Source: Pseudomonadota bacterium (GTDB taxonomy: Bacteria; Pseudomonadota; Gammaproteobacteria; Burkholderiales; Rhodocyclaceae). From it: a stretch of DNA of 64,000 nucleotides. Made by a program: the position numbers and the translations under genes. Of this stretch, positions 15,667 to 63,880 are shown piece by piece. Below the pieces are notes generated by a model, which had not been told where the DNA came from, ran no database searches, and saw only the letters and a list, made by a program, of their open reading frames with translations. The stretch lies in NCBI GenBank assembly GCA_018262095.1, contig JAGTRW010000001.1, positions 121,875 through 185,874 of the forward strand. Reading direction: 5' to 3'. Position 1 is the first letter of the stretch. Each line of letters starts with the position of its first letter.

Positions 15667-15693
15667 AAAGAAGAGGCCATCCGCCTCTTCTTT
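15667..15693. terminator. Bidirectional hairpin after aminotransferase
   Basis: Perfect AAAGAAGAGGC-CATCC-GCCTCTTCTTT. Confidence 0.7.
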
Positions 15694-27417: not shown

Positions 27418-28314
27418 TTACTTTTTGCGCGTCACCTCGACCTTGGCGAGTTTTTCGTAGTACTTGACGATGGCACCGTGATCGTCGCTGCCGGCACCGG
27501 CGATCTTGAGCGACTGCAGGATTTCCATCACGCCGGCGGTCAGCGGCAGCGGCACCCCGACGTTGTGCGCCGTCTCCAGCGCGTTGTTCAGATCCTTGAT
27601 GTGCAGATCGATGCGAAAGCCCGGTGCGAATTTGCGCTCGAGCATCAGCGGCGTTTTGGCGTTCATCACCGTGCTGCCGGCGAGTCCGCCCTTGATCGCG
27701 TTGAACACCAGTTCCGGATCAACGCCGGCCTTGGTCGCCAGCGTCATCGCTTCCGACAGCGCAGCGATGTTGAGCGCGACGATGACCTGATTGGCGAGCT
27801 TGGTGACGTTGCCGGCGCCGACGTCGCCGACGCGAACGGCCGATGCGCCCAGGCACTTGAGCAGCGGCAGGCACTCGTCGAAGACCGTCTGGTCGCCGCC
27901 GACCATGATCGACAGCGTCGCGTCGATGGCCTTCGGTTCGCCGCCTGAAACCGGCGCATCGATCATCTTGATCTCTTGCGCGGCCAGAGCCTTGGCGACT
28001 TCCTGCGCCGCCTGCGGCGCAATCGAGCTCATATCGACGACGATGGAGCCTGCGCGCGCCCCTTCGATGATGCCGTCTTTGCCGAGCGCAACAGCCTTGA
28101 CCTGGGGCGAATTGGGCAACATGGTGACGATGATTTCGGTCTGCGCGGCGACTGCACTGGGCGTCGCTGCCGACTTTGCGCCGAGCGCGACGACTTCGGC
28201 GACTGCCGCGCCATTGATGTCGCAGACAGTCAGGTCGTAGCCAGCCTGCAGCAGGTTCTTGGCCATCGGTTTGCCCATGACGCCAAGGCCGATGAAGCCT
28301 ATTTTTTTGCTCAT
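27418..28314 (-). CDS. garR: 2-hydroxy-3-oxopropionate (tartronate semialdehyde) reductase
   Basis: IGFIGLGVMGKPMAKNLL, MIDAPVSGGEPKAIDATLSIMVGG, GNVTKLANQVIVALNIAALSEAMTLATKAGV, collinear with E. coli GarR. Confidence 0.93.
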   Translation of the reverse strand: MSKKIGFIGLGVMGKPMAKNLLQAGYDLTVCDINGAAVAEVVALGAKSAATPSAVAAQTEIIVTMLPNSPQVKAVALGKDGIIEGARAGSIVVDMSSIAPQAAQEVAKALAAQEIKMIDAPVSGGEPKAIDATLSIMVGGDQTVFDECLPLLKCLGASAVRVGDVGAGNVTKLANQVIVALNIAALSEAMTLATKAGVDPELVFNAIKGGLAGSTVMNAKTPLMLERKFAPGFRIDLHIKDLNNALETAHNVGVPLPLTAGVMEILQSLKIAGAGSDDHGAIVKYYEKLAKVEVTRKK

Positions 28315-45553: not shown

Positions 45554-46618
45554 TCAGAGGAAAGACGGGAACGGCATGTCCGTGTCTTTGGTGAAGACGT
45601 CGTCGAAGCCGCGATAGAAGTGGAACTCCATGTCGTCCTTGTTATCGGGAAAGACGAACTTGCCGCCGACCTGCCAGATGTAAGGCTTGAACTTGTACTT
45701 GAGGCGATCCTTCTTCATGTTCCAGAGCATCGTGATTTCCATCGGATCGGCCATGAAGTTGGCCCAGATGTCGTGGTGGAAGGGGATGATCACCTTGGTA
45801 TTGAGCGCCTCGGCCATGCGCAGGATGTCCGACGAGGTCATCTTGTCGGTGATGCCGCGCGGGTTCTCGCCGTACGAGCCGAGCGCAACGTCGATCACGT
45901 GCTCGTTGCCGTGCTTGGCGTAACCGTTGGCGTAGTGCGAATCGCCGCTGTGGTAGAGGTTGCCGCCCGGCGTCTTGACCAGGTAGTTGACCGCGACGTC
46001 GTCCATGTCGATCGGCATCTTGTCCTTGGCGGTCTGTTCCTTGGGCAGCGTGATCATCATCGTGCGGTCGAACGATTCGAGCACCGTGAGTTCGATGTCG
46101 CCGATCTTGACCACGTCGCCGGGTTTGACGACGACGATGCGCTCGGCCGGGACGCCCCACTTGGTCCACATCTCGGCGCACGACTTCGGCCCGATGAACG
46201 GCACGCTGCTCGGGCAGTTCTTGAGCACCGCTGCGGCGACGTTGATGTCGATGTGATCGTTGTGCGTGTGCGTCGAGACGACGGCGTCGATCTGTTTGAT
46301 GGCGAAGGGATCGATGACGAACGGCGAGACGCGCAGATTGGGCTGCAGCGCGACGCAGCCGCTCATTCGCGCCATCTGGTGGTGCGGGTCCATCAGCGGG
46401 TTCTTCATCGAGCGCTTGCCGGTGCCGCACCACAGGTCGATGCAGATATTGGTATTGCCCTCGGTCTTGACCCAGATGCCGGTACACGCCAGCCACCACA
46501 TGGCGAAGGTGCCGGGCTTGACGACTTCGCGCTCGATCTCCTCGTTGAGCCAGGTGCCCCACTGCGGGAACGTGCTCAGCACCCACGATTCCTTGGTGAT
46601 TTCATCGACTTTTGCCAT
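45554..46618 (-). CDS. ulaG: UlaG-like MBL-fold lactonase (L-ascorbate-6-phosphate lactonase family)
   Basis: [79 protein letters not shown]. Confidence 0.88.
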
Positions 46619-46665
46619 GCTCTTCTCCTATCTAAAGTTCAAATTGATTCAACGCGGGTGACCGA

Positions 46666-47697
46666 CTAACTGACGAAATAGAGCGCGGCCTCGCCCTTCT
46701 CACGGTTGGCGGCAACGATGATGTCGCGGCGCTGTTCATGCAGCACGTAGACGTTGCTCGGACCGACGCCTTCTTCAATGACCACCGCTTCGAGTTGCGC
46801 CGGATCGGAGGGCGTCGCCTGCACGTAGAAAAGCTGTTGCTTGCCGCGTCGGCAGCCGCCGATGAAGACCGGCCGCCCGGCCAGCGTGGCACCGACGACG
46901 ACATGGTAGAACTCGGTGACTTCGGGATGCTCGTAGATCTTCTTGAACGCGCCGTCGATCTTCTTGTAGACGCGGAAGTACTCACCGTGAAACGGTTCGA
47001 TGGTCGCGAATTCGAGTTCGCCGTCGCCGTCGATGTCGATCGCCGAAATATCGCTGATCGGCCAATCCATCAACTGCGTTACGGTCCATTCGCCGCCGGG
47101 AAGCTGCGGTGGCGCAACCTCGAAGGCGCCCTGTTCGCAGGTGACCAGGCCGCACATCGCGCCATCTCGCACCAGCCGGCTATAGCCGTGGTTCTTGGTC
47201 AAGCCGTCCTTGAGCACGGAGACCTGCAGCGGGCCCGCGCCAGTGAATTCGCCGACCCAGATCTTGCCGGGATTCGACCAGTCTTCCTTGGACTCCTTGG
47301 TGGTCGCCAGCGTGCAACCTATGAAATAATGCCGGCCGCCGACCGTGAGCAGATCGAAACGGTGAATGTAGGGAAGCTGCAACACATCGCTGACCGCGTA
47401 GCCGCCGGTACTCAGCGGGCGCACATGGACGATTTTTGCTTCTTCCCATTGGAACATCTTGAAGAATTTCTGCACCGCCAGGAACTCGCCGTTGGTTCCC
47501 GGAATGGGAACGATCGACATCGTGCCGCCGGGGCCTTCCCAGACCGTATGCGACGACGCGTAGTCGGCGCCGGTCCACGCCAGACACGGCCCTTCGCCCT
47601 CGGTGGCGAGCAGGATTCTGGACTGACCGTCGACCACGATGCTGTTGGCCGAATAACAGCGGTTGAGCTCGGTCAGAAAGTGCTTTTCGATTTTCAT
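46666..47697 (-). CDS. Uncharacterised protein with FG-GAP/VCBS-like Ca-binding motif
   Basis: 344 aa, no signal peptide; DIDGDGELEFATIEPF (DxDxDG) and repeated beta-rich blades; likely cotranscribed with ulaG-like gene. Confidence 0.7.
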   Translation of the reverse strand: MKIEKHFLTELNRCYSANSIVVDGQSRILLATEGEGPCLAWTGADYASSHTVWEGPGGTMSIVPIPGTNGEFLAVQKFFKMFQWEEAKIVHVRPLSTGGYAVSDVLQLPYIHRFDLLTVGGRHYFIGCTLATTKESKEDWSNPGKIWVGEFTGAGPLQVSVLKDGLTKNHGYSRLVRDGAMCGLVTCEQGAFEVAPPQLPGGEWTVTQLMDWPISDISAIDIDGDGELEFATIEPFHGEYFRVYKKIDGAFKKIYEHPEVTEFYHVVVGATLAGRPVFIGGCRRGKQQLFYVQATPSDPAQLEAVVIEEGVGPSNVYVLHEQRRDIIVAANREKGEAALYFVS

Positions 47698-47785
47698 CGC
47701 ATTCGTCCTCAAGGATCAAAACAACTGCCGCAAACGATAATTTCAGCGAATTTTATATCATTTTGTTAAACAAATAAAGCGAGTA

Positions 47786-47802
47786 ACGATCAAAAAGATC
47801 GT
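47786..47802. promoter_or_regulatory. Shared operator ACGATC-N5-GATCGT (site 1)
   Basis: ACGATC-AAAAA-GATCGT in divergent region between the unknown/ulaG pair and the kinase/deoR pair. Confidence 0.7.
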
Positions 47803-47867
47803 ATTGAACAGTGCATTTTGCGAAATTTCGCTTTAGAATTCGCTGGGCGTTGGTAACTGGAGGTGGC

Positions 47868-49376
47868 ATGAAGGGGATCATTACCGTCGATATCGGAACA
47901 ACCAGCATGAGGGCCATCCTCTTCGACAGGCAGGGCCTTGCCTTGCATATCGATCAGCGCGAAAACGTTCCGCAGTTTTTCAACGACGGTCGCGTCGAGC
48001 AGGACCCGGCGGCGTGGCAAACGATTGTCTGCGAGGTCCTGGGCAATTGCGCCAAGGTCGCCGCGACGAAAGGGGTCGAGCCGCTCTGCGTGTCGGTCAC
48101 CGCGCAACGTTCATCGGTGATTCCGGTCGATCGCGACGGCAAGCCGTTGCATCCCGCGATCATGTGGCAGGACAAGCGCTGCGCCGCGCTGGCGTTGGCC
48201 ATGGCGGAATACAACCCGCTGGTGTACGGCAAGACCGGGCTCAAGATCTCACCGGTTTTCTCGGCGCTCAAGATGACCTGGCTGCGCCGCAACCATCCCG
48301 ACATCTGGCAGAAGACGTACAAGATGATCGGCATCCAGGACTGGGTTCTCTACCTGCTGACCGGCCGCTTCGTCACCGACCAGACCTTTGGCAGCCGAAC
48401 CAATCTGCTCGACCTGAAAACGCGCGCCTGGGACCCCGATCTGCTGTCGCTGTTCGAGGTCGAACCCGGAATGCTTTGCGATCTCGTCGAGCCCGGATCG
48501 GTAATCGGCGCACTGACCCCGGCGATGGCCCTGGCGACCGGTCTGCCAGCCGGCTTGCCGGTCGTTTCAGCGGGCGGCGACCAGCAATGCGCGGCGCTCG
48601 GCCTTGGCCTGTTTTCGGGCGAACACGCCGTATCGAACACCGGAACCGGCTCCTACCTCATCGGCCACACCGAGCGGCCGGCATTCGACGAAAAGATGCG
48701 CTTGTCGTGCAATGTCTCGGCGGTTCCCGGCGCGTATATCGTCGAGGCCGCGGTACTGACTTCGGGAACGATCTACCGCTGGTTCGCTGAATCGATCTTC
48801 GGCGGCAACGCGCCCTCAAGAGACACTTTCGCCGCGGTCAACGCGGCGGCGCAGAGCGCGCCGCCCGGTTGCAACGGCCTGCTGCTCTTGCCCCATTTCA
48901 AAGGCTGCGGATCGCCGCACTGGGACCCCGACGCCAAGGGCGTATTTTTCAACCTGACACTCTCGACTTCGCGCGGCGACATGGCGCGCGCCATCCTTGA
49001 GGGCATTGCGGTCGAGATGAAGGGAAGCCTCGAGCTCGTCGAAAAGCTCTGCGGTACCGTCGCTTCGGTGACCGTCTCGGGCGGACTGACGCGATCGACG
49101 CTGTTTAACCAGATTCAGAGCGACATCTTCGAGCGCGCTGTCGTCCGCCTCAAAAATGATGAAGCCACCTCGCTCGGCGCCTGGATCGCCGGCGCCGTCG
49201 CGCTGGGCGTCGAAGACAATCATGCAGCCGCTTTCGCTCGCGTCAGCGACCCCGCTTCGGCGCAAAGCTACCAGCCCGACCCCGCCCTGCAGCAAACGTA
49301 CCAACGCCAGTCCCGCCAGTCGCAAGCGCTCTACCAGGCCTTGGCGTCCCCCGCCTTCCGCGAGCAGTTAAAGTGA
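47868..49376 (+). CDS. FGGY-family carbohydrate kinase (xylulokinase-like)
   Basis: GIITVDIGTTSMRAILFD, SVTAQRSSVIPVDRDGKPLHPAIMWQDKR, SNTGTGSYLIGH; ATG 47868. Confidence 0.92.
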   Translation: MKGIITVDIGTTSMRAILFDRQGLALHIDQRENVPQFFNDGRVEQDPAAWQTIVCEVLGNCAKVAATKGVEPLCVSVTAQRSSVIPVDRDGKPLHPAIMWQDKRCAALALAMAEYNPLVYGKTGLKISPVFSALKMTWLRRNHPDIWQKTYKMIGIQDWVLYLLTGRFVTDQTFGSRTNLLDLKTRAWDPDLLSLFEVEPGMLCDLVEPGSVIGALTPAMALATGLPAGLPVVSAGGDQQCAALGLGLFSGEHAVSNTGTGSYLIGHTERPAFDEKMRLSCNVSAVPGAYIVEAAVLTSGTIYRWFAESIFGGNAPSRDTFAAVNAAAQSAPPGCNGLLLLPHFKGCGSPHWDPDAKGVFFNLTLSTSRGDMARAILEGIAVEMKGSLELVEKLCGTVASVTVSGGLTRSTLFNQIQSDIFERAVVRLKNDEATSLGAWIAGAVALGVEDNHAAAFARVSDPASAQSYQPDPALQQTYQRQSRQSQALYQALASPAFREQLK

Positions 49377-49386
49377 GGAAAACACA

Positions 49387-50187
49387 GTGAAAGTGAGCAA
49401 CCAGCGACCGCCGACGACCGTCTCCAATTACCGCCACAAGAAAATCCTGGAGATGCTGTACCAGCGAAAATCCGTCTCTGCCGACGAACTGGCCGCGGAA
49501 TTCGGCGTCTCCAAGATCACCATCCGACGCGACCTCGACGCCTTGGCCGGCGACAAGTTTCTCGAGCGTACGCGCGGCGGCGCCGTTTCAGTGTCCGGCC
49601 TGAGTTTCGAGGAGTTTTTCGAGGAAAAGGACCATTCCGCCAAGAAGGAAAAGAGCCTGATCGGCCGCTATGTCGCCGCGCTGGTCGCCGAAAACGAAAC
49701 CGTCTTCGTCAATGCCGGATCGACGACGCTCGAGGTCATCCGCCATCTGCAGGGCAAGAATGCACGCATCGTCACCAACAACGCCGCCTGCCTCTCGCTC
49801 GATCTCGATCCGCATCAGGAGTTGATCCTGCTCGGCGGCGACTACCGCATGCAGTCAAAGTCGCTGGTCGGCGACCTGACCATCAACAGCCTGCGCCCGA
49901 TCTTTTCGAGCATCACCGTGCTCGGCATCAATGGCGTGAGCATCAAGAAGGGATGCACCAGCGCGGTACACCAGGAAACCAGCGTCAACAAGGCGATGAT
50001 CGAAAATTCAAGCGGCAAGGTGATCGTCGTCGCCGACCATACCAAGATGAACAGCGTCTCAAGTTTCCTGACCTGCCCGCTCAACCGCATCGACATGATC
50101 GTCACCGACTGGCTGGCACCGCTTCAGTTCTGCGAAGAACTCGAAGCGTCCGGGCTATGCGTCGTCAGAGTGGCGGAAGAAGCTTAG
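49387..50187 (+). CDS. DeoR-family transcriptional regulator
   Basis: RHKKILEMLYQRKSVSADELAAEFGVSKITIRRDLDAL, VNAGSTTLEVIRHL sugar-phosphate sensing domain. Confidence 0.95.
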   Translation: MKVSNQRPPTTVSNYRHKKILEMLYQRKSVSADELAAEFGVSKITIRRDLDALAGDKFLERTRGGAVSVSGLSFEEFFEEKDHSAKKEKSLIGRYVAALVAENETVFVNAGSTTLEVIRHLQGKNARIVTNNAACLSLDLDPHQELILLGGDYRMQSKSLVGDLTINSLRPIFSSITVLGINGVSIKKGCTSAVHQETSVNKAMIENSSGKVIVVADHTKMNSVSSFLTCPLNRIDMIVTDWLAPLQFCEELEASGLCVVRVAEEA

Positions 50188-50222: not shown

Positions 50223-50918
50223 TCAGTTCTGCCCGTAGTACGCGCCGGGGCCGTGCTTGCGGAAGAAGTGCTTCTCAAGCAGATGCTGCGGCATCGGTGG
50301 CAGGTTCTTTTCCAGTTGCAAACTGAGCAAGGCCATGCGTGCGGTCAGTTCGAGCACGGCCGCATTATGCACGGCGTCGTTGGCATCGCTGCCCCAGGCG
50401 AAGGGGCCGTGGTTGGCCACCAGAACGACCGGCATATGACGCGGGTCGATATTGCCTTCGCGGAAGCGCTCGACGATCGCCAGCCCCGTTTCGGATTCGT
50501 ACTCACCGGCCGTCTGCTGCTGCTTGAGCTGCCGCGTGCAGGGAATCTCACCGAAAAAATAGTCGGCATGCGTCGTCCCCAGCGCGGGAATTCCCCGGCA
50601 GGCCTGAGCCCAGACCGTCGCCCAGGTCGAATGGGTATGCACGATGCCGCCGATCTGCGGAAAGTGGCGGTACAGTTCGACGTGCGTCGGCAGGTCCGAC
50701 GAAGGACGCAGCTTGCCTTCGAGAACACGGCCATCGGCATCGACGACGACCATGTCGGCCACTTTCATGGTTGCGTACGGAACACCGCTGGGCTTGATGA
50801 CGAAAGCGCCGCTCTCGGGGTCCTTGCCGCTGACATTGCCCCAGGTAAAGTCGACGAGACCTTGGCGCGGCAGTTCGAGATTGGCTTCGAGAACCTGCTC
50901 TTTGAGTGCTTCAAGCAT
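50223..50918 (-). CDS. L-ribulose-5-phosphate 4-epimerase (AraD/UlaF family)
   Basis: [64 protein letters not shown] 50918. Confidence 0.95.
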
Positions 50919-51772
50919 TATGCGTACCCTCCTTGGTGCAGACGTTCGCCGACCCACTGACGGGCCAGCGCAATTTCCTTGATCGGATCGGCGGCTTTCT
51001 CGGTCCACATTTCGACCAGAAACGGTCCCGCATAAGCCAGATCGTGCAGCGTTCTGAAGCAATGGACGAAGTCGACGCTGCCTTCGCCAAAAGCGATATC
51101 GCGGAAAGCTCCCGGAAAGTTCGGAGCGACCGGCAGCGTTTCCTTGACATGGACGCCGACGATTTGATCGATTCCAGCCTTCAATTCGGCGGCCACGTCG
51201 TTGCCCCAGGCGGTGAGGTTGCCGAGGTCCGGATAGACCATGAACCACGGCGACGGCAACCGCTCCTTGAGCACCAGGTATTTGCTGATCGAGTTGAGAA
51301 AGGTGGTGTCCATGATTTCGAGCGCCAGCGTCACCTGATGCTGCGCAGCGACCTGCAGCGCGCGCTCCATCCCCGCGTAGTAGCGCTCGCGGGATTCGCG
51401 CGTGGTCGGCTCGTAATAGACGTCGTAACCGGCAAGCTGGATGACGCGGATGCCGGTATCGCTGGCGAAACGAATCGCTTTCGTCATGAACTGCGCAGCT
51501 TGCGCCCGGATGCCCGGATCGGCGCTACCGAACGGTATCTTGCGGTGACCCGACAGGCACATCGAGGGAACCGGCACCTCGTTTTCGCGCGAAGCGCGGA
51601 AAAACGCCAAGCGCTCGGCCAGCGACCAGTCGAGGCGAGCCATGCGCTCAGGCGTTTCATCGACCGACAATTCAAGAAAATCATAGCCGGCACCGCGTGC
51701 GGCCTTGAATCGTTCGCCCCAGGTCATATCCTTGGGCAGGGCCTTTTCGTAAATACCAATCGGATTTTCCAT
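50918..51772 (-). CDS. L-ribulose-5-phosphate 3-epimerase (UlaE/SgbU family)
   Basis: [48 protein letters not shown]; overlaps the araD start. Confidence 0.92.
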
Positions 51773-52017
51773 CAAACCCTCTCGCTTTGGGGCCTGCAGT
51801 GTAATTTCGGCGGCCGAAAATGTAAAGAAAGAAAAGCACAAAGTGATCGATAACAGAACACAAAGCGCCGAACCAGCCTCATTTTCAGGCAACACGGCAC
51901 GCCGAACGATGCCGCTCGCCGACTCTGTTTATCGCCGTATTGCGTTGATTCTAGGGGCCTATTATTTTATCCGAAATTTATTGCCAAGAACGACAATTTG
52001 ATTATAGAATGGTTCCA

Positions 52018-52040
52018 TAAACGATCATATTGATCGTTTA
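52018..52040. promoter_or_regulatory. Shared operator ACGATC-N5-GATCGT (site 2), perfect 23-bp palindrome
   Basis: TAAACGATCA-TAT-TGATCGTTTA, just downstream of TTGCCA-N16-TATAGA promoter-like elements. Confidence 0.85.
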
Positions 52041-52081: not shown

Positions 52082-53026
52082 ATGGCAAAGACAAAATTGA
52101 TGGCGATGCTGACCGCCTTGCTGGTCACCGCAAGCGGGGTCGCGACGGCGCAGACCAGCTACAAGATTGGTTATTTACCGAGCACCGTCGGACAGGCGCT
52201 GACCCAGGCGTGGCGCGTCGGCATCGAAAACGCGCTCAAGGACAAGAAAAACGTCACGATGCAGTCGCTCGACGCGCAAATGAAAGCGGAAATCCAGGTC
52301 ACCATGATGGACGACTTCATCAACCAGGGTTACAACGCGATCATCCTGCAGCCGATCGACGCCGCGGCGCTCACCGCCAGCGTCAAGAAAGCCGAAAGCA
52401 AGGGTATCCCGGTGATCACGCTCAACACCGACACCATGCTGCCGCACGCTGCCTGCGTGACGATGGACGATACCGGTGCCGGTTACATGGTCGCCGAAAA
52501 CGTCGGCAAATCGCTCGGCGGCAAGGGCAACGTCGCGATCCTGCAGTCGCCTCCTGGCGCCCAGGCCGGCGTCGAACGCGAAAAGGGATTCCGCGCGGCA
52601 CTCGCCAAACAGTATCCGAACATCAAGATCGTCGGCGCCCAGAATGCCCAGTGGAACAAGGACAAGGGCATTGAGATCATGAACAGCTTCCTGCAGGTCA
52701 ACAAGGAGCTCGACGCTGTCTTCGCAGTCAATGACAATATGGCCGAAGGCGCAATGATCGCCGCCGAATCGGCAGGCCGTCTCGGCCAGATCAAGATCTG
52801 GGGCTTCAACGGGCAAAAGAGCACGCTGGCGCTGATCGAACAGGGCAAGATCACCGGCACCGCGTATACCAATGCCTACAACCAGGGTGGAATGGCGGCG
52901 AAATATGCGATGGACCTGCTGACCGGCGCCAAGAAGAAGGGCGCGGCGACCGAGATCATCAAGGTTCCGCCGTTTGCCGCAACCAAGGATACGGTGGCAC
53001 AAATCAAGGCTGAAGATCGCTGGTAA
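52082..53026 (+). CDS. Sugar ABC transporter substrate-binding protein (RbsB-like)
   Basis: Signal peptide; YKIGYLPSTVGQALTQAWRVGIENALKDKK, VITLNTDTMLPHAACVTMDDTGAG. Confidence 0.92.
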   Translation: MAKTKLMAMLTALLVTASGVATAQTSYKIGYLPSTVGQALTQAWRVGIENALKDKKNVTMQSLDAQMKAEIQVTMMDDFINQGYNAIILQPIDAAALTASVKKAESKGIPVITLNTDTMLPHAACVTMDDTGAGYMVAENVGKSLGGKGNVAILQSPPGAQAGVEREKGFRAALAKQYPNIKIVGAQNAQWNKDKGIEIMNSFLQVNKELDAVFAVNDNMAEGAMIAAESAGRLGQIKIWGFNGQKSTLALIEQGKITGTAYTNAYNQGGMAAKYAMDLLTGAKKKGAATEIIKVPPFAATKDTVAQIKAEDRW

Positions 53027-53101: not shown

Positions 53102-54102
53102 GTGTCGGTCAGCGCTATTCGACGACTCATCCTGGTTGGGCTGCTGATATCCATCGGTGCCGCCCTGTCCATTGCCAGCCCAAGCTTCCTCACCCTCGAC
53201 AACCTGATGACGCTGCTGCAGGAAGCATCGCTGACGGGCATTGTCGCCATCGGCTTTACGCTGGTGCTGATCACCGCCGGAATCGACATGTCGATCGGCG
53301 CAGTGATCGCCATCACCTCGATGGTCTGCGTCAATTTCATTTCCTATACCCACTTGCCGGCCTATGTTTTCATCCCAATCGCGCTTGCCGGCGGCTGCCT
53401 GATCGGCTGGGTCAACGGCTTCTTCATCACTTATTTCAAGCTGCCCGAATTCATCGTCACGCTCGCCACGCGAGGGATTCTGGCCGGCCTGGCGCTGATC
53501 GCGGCGGTCAAGGACGACCAGGGCTTCGTCAAGAACGTCTTCATCCAGGACGAGGTCTTCCTCTCCTTCGGCGAAACGGTCGGCCCCGTCTATATCGTGA
53601 CCATCGTCTTCTTCGTGCTGGCGTTCGCCACCCAGCTCTTCCTCAAGCGCACGCGCGCCGGAACCAACGTCTACGCGACCGGCGCCAACCCGACCGCGTC
53701 GCGCCTGTCCGGAATCAATACCGACCGCACGCTGATCGGCGTCTATATGTTCTCGGGCTTCTGCGCGGCGCTGGCGTCGATCTTCCTGTCGGCACGAATG
53801 ATGACCGCGATGCCCGATTTCGGCATCGGCTCCGAAATGGACGTGATCGCTTCGGTGGTGATCGGCGGCACGCCATTTACCGGCGGCGTCGGCGACATCT
53901 GGGGAACGGTAATCGGCACGCTGTTCCTGGCGCTGATCAAGAACGGCATCCTCAAACTGGGGCTATCGCCGTACATCCAACCGATCGTGATCGGCGGAAT
54001 CATCGTCGTGACGGTAATCGCCGACGTCTGGTACAAGGGCTTCGCCGAAAAGCGGGCGACCCGCATCGCACGTCAGAAACAGGCTTTGGCCAAGGAGGGC
54101 GT

Positions 54103-54106
<4 letters not shown>
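53102..54106 (+). CDS. Sugar ABC transporter permease (RbsC-like)
   Basis: GTG start; GIVAIGFTLVLITAGIDMSIGAVIAITSM. Confidence 0.93.
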
Positions 54107-55625
<1,519 letters not shown>

Positions 55626-55629
<4 letters not shown>

Positions 55630-56621
55630 AAGCTACCAACTGGCGGCGACTGATCGTCGATTTTCGCTTGTTCGGGATATTGTTGCTGATGATGGTCGTA
55701 CTCTCCTTCGTCTCGGACCGCTTCCTGACCGTCGACAACCTGACCAACGTGTTGTGGTCGGTCTGCCTGATCGGCATCATGTCGGTCGGCGCGATCTATG
55801 CGCCGATCACCGGCGGCATCGACCTGTCGGTCGGATCGATTGCGGCGCTCTCGGGAATCGTCGCCAACGTACTGATGAACGTCTACGGACTCAACTGGAT
55901 GCTCGCGATCTTCATCACGCTAGGCATCGGCGTGCTGATCGGCTGGGTCAATGGCATGGTCACGACCAAGTTCCTGGTTCCGGCGTTCATCGTCACGATG
56001 GCCGCCAAGACCTATCTGTTCGGCGTCGCCATGCTGGTGTCCAACGGCGACCAGATCACCATCATGCAGCCGAAGGAGTTTCTGATCATTGGCGTCGGCA
56101 AGTTCCTGGGAATTCCGATTCCGATCTACATCATGATCATCCTCGCCGTCGGCAGCCACATCCTGCTCAAGCACACGGTCTTCGGCCGGCAGGCGATCGC
56201 GGTGGGCGCCAACGAAGTGTCGGCAAAACTGTCGGGCGTCAATCCCGACCGGACGCGAATCATCGTTTATATCATCTCGGCGGTGACCGCGACGATTGCC
56301 GGAATCGTCATGGCGTCGCTGACCCAGCAGGCCTTTGCGATGAACGCCACCGGTTACGAGTTCGACGTGATTACCGCCATCGTCATCGGCGGAACCAGCC
56401 TGATGGGCGGCAACGGGTCGGTGACCGGAGCGCTGATCGGCGCGGTGATGGTCGGCTTCATCAACAACGGACTCAACCTGCTTGACATGCCTTCGTCATT
56501 TCACCCGATCGCCACCGGCCTGGTGATTCTGATCGCGCTGATCATGAACCAGGGCTTCAGCCTGCCCGGCGCCGTCAAGAAAGTCCTGGCGCGATTCAGG
56601 ACCGCCGAATCGCTCAAATAG
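55626..56621 (+). CDS. Sugar ABC transporter permease (RbsC-like), second copy
   Basis: GIMSVGAIYAPITGGIDLSVGSIAALSGIV. Confidence 0.93.
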
Positions 56622-63847: not shown

Positions 63848-63880
63848 GAAAAAAAACCCGCTTGGCAGCGGGTTTTTTTG
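63848..63880. terminator. Rho-independent terminator between pccA and converging gene
   Basis: AAAAAAAACCCGCTTGGCAGCGGGTTTTTTT. Confidence 0.85.

Follow-up and report, generated by a model that had tools for sequence, protein, structure and literature searches.

A conserved palindrome at an ABC transporter promoter as the probable main operator of a DeoR-family regulator in a variant ula-type gene cluster

Here we have analysed a 64,000-nucleotide stretch of a Rhodocyclaceae genome (the window), part of which is taken up by a sugar-related gene cluster arranged in the order UlaG, propeller protein (both on the minus strand), FGGY kinase, DeoR (both plus), UlaF/AraD, UlaE (both minus) and an ABC transporter operon (plus), the last encoding, in order, a binding protein, a permease, an ATPase and a second permease. 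The genes, in window coordinates, are as follows.

45554–46618, minus strand: UlaG, L-ascorbate-6-phosphate lactonase (NF008688, 644 bits against a cut-off of 306; 71% identity to E. coli UlaG)
46666–47697, minus strand: conserved 343-aa protein, predicted seven-bladed beta-propeller (a confident AlphaFold model, pLDDT 88.6, 28 strands)
47868–49376, plus strand: FGGY carbohydrate kinase (PF00370, PF02782; ATG start with GGAGG)
49387–50187, plus strand: DeoR-family regulator, the putative binder of the sites described below (PF08220 and PF00455 above cut-off)
50223–50918, minus strand: UlaF/AraD, L-ribulose-5-phosphate 4-epimerase (NF006047 above cut-off; 62% identity to E. coli UlaF)
50918–51772, minus strand: UlaE, L-xylulose/L-ribulose-5-phosphate 3-epimerase (NF009689 above cut-off; 53% identity to E. 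coli UlaE)
52082–53026, plus strand: periplasmic sugar-binding protein, first gene of the ABC operon (PF13407)
53102–56621, plus strand: ABC permease, ATPase and permease (PF02653, PF00005, PF02653)

The regulator gene lies 10 bp downstream of the FGGY kinase gene and encodes an N-terminal HTH_DeoR domain (PF08220, 61.5 bits, cut-off 21) followed by a C-terminal DeoRC sensor domain (PF00455, 132 bits, cut-off 31.8). Two components of the E. coli pathway are missing from the 97.7% complete genome: a search for UlaD (3-keto-L-gulonate-6-P decarboxylase) returned a single PF00215 protein, which resembles PyrF, and no match to PF03611 (EIIC-GAT) of the UlaABC PTS was found anywhere. By its predicted gene content the cluster is thus a non-PTS variant of the ula (L-ascorbate-type) pathway, with UlaG, UlaE and UlaF present and UlaD and the PTS absent.

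Between the divergent ulaE gene and the ABC operon lies a palindrome, O1, which a sequence-only reading had described as perfect with 10-bp arms and as preceded, some 10 bp upstream, by a -10-like TATAGA. Both descriptions were borne out: O1 reads TAAACGATCA-TAT-TGATCGTTTA with 10 of 10 arm pairs matched, and begins 9 bp past the TATAGA. The predicted promoter elements and operators are as follows.

46633–46653, no strand assigned: O3, weaker predicted operator just upstream of ulaG, TAAAGTTCAAATTGATTCAAC (15.3 bits)
47784–47804, no strand assigned: O2, second predicted operator, between the divergent propeller gene and kinase-DeoR operon, TAACGATCAAAAAGATCGTAT (21.2 bits)
51832–51852, no strand assigned: O4, weaker predicted operator upstream of ulaE, AAAAGCACAAAGTGATCGATA (12.7 bits)
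51981–51986, plus strand: TTGCCA, predicted -35 box of the promoter driving the ABC operon (TTGCMA in the corresponding position of the ABC promoters at related loci L009, L021, L026 and L034)
52003–52008, plus strand: TATAGA, predicted -10 box of the same promoter (TATARA conserved)
52018–52040, no strand assigned: O1, predicted main operator of the ABC operon, an exact, perfect 23-bp palindrome and the best-scoring site

Symmetry is weak evidence when taken alone, because 10-bp arms arise by chance in 64 kb: a first-order Markov model matched to the window in composition predicts about 1.8 perfect 10-bp arm pairs (loops of 0–10) per 64 kb, and the window holds three distinct ones including O1. 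We therefore dropped symmetry as sole proof. The other two lie at 15668–15692 and 63853–63876; the latter (AAAACCCGC...GCGGGTTTT) has runs of A and of T at its flanks and resembles a bidirectional terminator. What raises O1 above chance as a putative operator is its conservation, not its symmetry.

The whole palindrome, with up to three mismatches allowed, has no match but itself in the window or in the 4.80-Mb genome. Furthermore, its core ACGATC-N5-GATCGT, which the sequence-only reading had singled out for a genome scan on the grounds that scatter would speak against it, occurs exactly in only four places in 4.8 Mb; two of these are in the cluster's two divergent promoter regions, at 52021–52037 and 47786–47802. 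The genome-wide scatter that would have counted against the proposal is thus not seen. When one mismatch is allowed, 76 places appear in the genome, many with a GC-rich spacer, and a loose genome scan is therefore misleading. Each half-site contains one GATC, and control by GATC methylation was considered and rejected, as the genome has no Dam-type methylase (PF02086).

To place O1 among its relatives we drew on 27 loci returned by a protein search with DeoR, mostly betaproteobacterial (Propionivibrio, Accumulibacter-labelled, Comamonadaceae and Hydrogenophaga MAGs) and including two spirochaete MAGs; two distant Firmicutes loci were excluded from analysis. De novo motif discovery was run on 55 promoter segments from 25 related loci, leaving out the window. 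An unconstrained search settled on an ill-defined, AT-rich pattern of some 380 'sites' and was discarded; the motif retained, aAa.GATCAAaTTGATC.tTt, comes from a search with fixed site density, and its log-likelihood (17-bp version) is 358 versus 47–108 in six shuffled promoter sets. Among 2160 permuted palindromes of equal base make-up, CGATCA-N3-TGATCG is the commonest in the relatives' promoters (14 hits, mean 0.02) and ACGATC-N5-GATCGT the second (8 hits, same mean), the latter at a density of 0.76 per kb versus 0.03 elsewhere. Scanning the window with this motif, learned without it, ranks O1 first (52019–52039, 27.4 bits) and O2 second of the entire 64 kb (21.2 bits). O3 and O4 fall within the next four matches, alongside an overlapping shifted match and an off-cluster site in a coding frame, 27957–27977 (15.5 bits), which we rejected as it lies inside the open frame 27418–28314.

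The motif occurs in relatives at the same kinds of position: upstream of the ABC operon, between the propeller and kinase genes, upstream of ulaG and upstream of ulaE. An inverted repeat is thus conserved in the promoters of DeoR's own cluster, as would be expected of a DeoR operator. About ten relatives have a counterpart of O2, a site that the sequence-only reading had passed over, in the equivalent position. O3 and O4 score as weak predicted sites within the window; relatives have stronger sites upstream of ulaG, and upstream of ulaE the CGATCACTTTG element is kept in L009, L026 and L034. The partial half-site suspected near 51844 is real, as part of the weak but conserved full site O4.

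At the ABC promoter itself, the -35 TTGCCA lies 16 bp upstream of the -10 TATAGA; an alternative pairing, TTGCCA-18-TAGAAT, can also be listed. Five ABC promoters (the window, L009, L021, L034 and L026) have in common TTGCMA, a 16-bp spacer, TATARA and then the operator, with a distance from TATARA to the operator (measured to GWTCA) of 14 bp in four and 13 bp in one. L026 is a near-duplicate of L009, so that the geometry is kept in three other lineages besides the window. Relative to the predicted transcription start, O1 would span about +3 to +25, a position in which a bound protein would block initiation.

It is most improbable that the palindrome instead works at the RNA level, folding into a hairpin in the ABC transcript's 5' leader and acting through stability or attenuation. 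A 10-bp hairpin would form in the leader, with a fold z-score of -2.85; however, no T-run follows the palindrome, arm complementarity is lost in L021 (AACGTTCA/TGATCGTT) and in L034, and the same motif lies upstream of other promoters, outside their transcripts.

Several comparisons bear on which protein would bind these sites. The 25 footprinted loci were gathered by DeoR search, and co-occurrence of motif and DeoR among them is partly built in; because they were found via this DeoR, only the paralogous loci and a family-wide count are independent. The same genome holds a paralogous ABC operon (locus L082, G000:C37, 2.5–7.2 kb) whose binding protein is 80%, permeases 90% and 83%, and ATPase 86% identical, and no operator was found upstream of its binding-protein gene. 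The neighbours of this copy include a GntR regulator, a class II aldolase and further sugar genes, and one suggested reading is a duplication or transfer with a switched regulator. Similarly, the propeller gene occurs in further copies next to different regulators at five loci (three from this genome, two from congeners), and none of these has a site above 12.7 bits. A search of the class for further ABC-operon orthologues to serve as controls gave none beyond this genome. Across 299 genomes of the family, a stringent version of the motif is present in 4 of 5 with this DeoR, always in the cluster, versus 9 of 294 without it (Fisher p = 1e-5); the family-level search returned four further DeoR-positive genome matches, three of them records already among the loci. 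Additionally, the motif goes with DeoR not only in betaproteobacteria but also in a spirochaete MAG whose transporters differ. The DeoR recognition helix is near-invariant across the 27 sequences though some loci use GGATCAAATTGATCC, and no signal of covariation between operator and helix was detected.

These controls support the adjacent DeoR protein as the putative binder of the sites. The sequence-only reading had named the palindrome as a repressor site of this protein (49387–50187), and the proposal, of putative binding and putative repression, gains weight from a motif found at 25 DeoR loci and absent where close copies of the ABC operon or the propeller gene adjoin other regulators. Binding is not computable, and the sites might be operators of another regulator encoded elsewhere in the genome, for example of LacI, GntR or Lrp type, with the adjacent DeoR not the binder. 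At another place in the genome, a one-mismatch relative of the motif does lie between a gene resembling that for 4-hydroxyphenylpyruvate dioxygenase and one for an Lrp-type regulator (L040, G000:C28:6434-6452), though it is probably an unrelated site. We consider such a foreign regulator quite improbable, given that the motif tracks DeoR across betaproteobacteria and into the spirochaete MAG despite different transporters, and that it is missing where the ABC operon or the propeller gene adjoins other regulators.

We therefore favour, at a probability of roughly 0.8, a reading in which the palindrome is the main operator of DeoR (49387–50187), repressing the ABC operon, with O2–O4 belonging to the same regulon. 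When substrate is lacking, DeoR would occupy the two inverted (A)CGATCA half-sites of O1 and stop RNA polymerase from starting at, or leaving, the ABC-transporter promoter. It would also occupy O2 (between the divergent propeller gene and kinase-deoR), O3 (before ulaG) and O4 (before ulaE), such that the four sites would place the genes for uptake, kinase and epimerases, with deoR included, in a single regulon. A phosphorylated pathway intermediate most likely binds the DeoRC domain, upon which DeoR would be released.

Activation by a bound DeoR, at least at the divergent kinase and propeller promoters, is conceivable on account of O2, which lies between the two promoters, upstream of both and over neither start site, and upstream of the propeller gene's conserved TGATATAAA element. 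We regard this as unlikely: O1 sits just downstream of the ABC -10, where a bound protein blocks transcription, and the regulator of the E. coli ula system is a repressor with four operators (PMC3219644). Repression by DeoR from O1 accordingly remains our preferred reading.

Indeed, E. coli UlaR offers the closest comparison, being a repressor that acts as a tetramer on four operators and is released by L-ascorbate 6-phosphate (PMC3219644). As in that system, a DeoR-family regulator is encoded in the same cluster as ulaG, there are four operator-like sites (here computed), and the regulon (here predicted) takes in orthologues of UlaG, UlaE and UlaF. Unlike UlaR, the regulator described here shares only 29% identity with it and scores 106.6 bits on NF010034 versus the UlaR cut-off of 244; judged on these scores, it is not an E. 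coli-type UlaR. Transport also differs, being by an ABC system and not a PTS, and ulaD is absent. The sites were also considered as E. coli-type UlaR operators, and this was rejected for want of a convincing match: scanned with our motif, the E. coli ulaG-ulaA intergenic region reaches a maximum of 9.0 bits. Purely by analogy with UlaR, this DeoR may form a tetramer, loop the DNA between its four computed sites and respond to an effector, and its sites may cooperate.

More broadly, DeoR/GlpR-family systems share the arrangement seen here, a two-domain regulator (HTH_DeoR and DeoRC) within a sugar cluster whose promoters carry inverted-repeat sites, and the kind of switch is well known. The motif, (A)CGATCA-N3-TGATCG(T), differs from other DeoR/GlpR-family operators, and no published description of it or its regulon was found in the literature searched; as far as that literature goes, both are undescribed. 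The present analysis offers a motif that can be tested for binding, together with a predicted regulon of four sites, for a DeoR-type regulator undescribed so far, which occurs in Propionivibrio, Accumulibacter-labelled and other betaproteobacterial genomes.

The pathway is more unusual than the operator. By marking the genes that belong together, the operator helps in finding what the variant ula pathway takes as its substrate and what the propeller protein does. It is possible, though we put this forward tentatively, that the operator marks a UlaD-less, PTS-less L-ascorbate-type regulon in which the ABC transporter and FGGY kinase replace the PTS, the propeller protein supplies the missing catalytic step and the effector is a phosphorylated sugar acid that is not among the known DeoR ligands. 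The propeller protein has no match in Pfam, NCBIfam or PDB sequences. In a fold search, aldos-2-ulose dehydratase is among the best matches and heads the list by query-normalised TM-score (0.81), with LGI1 propellers ranking above it by E-value and propeller matches being unspecific. The gene is present in four copies in the genome, some of them beside DhaK/DhaL-like kinases, reductases and TRAP transporters; the propeller proteins are possibly a sugar-acid enzyme family.
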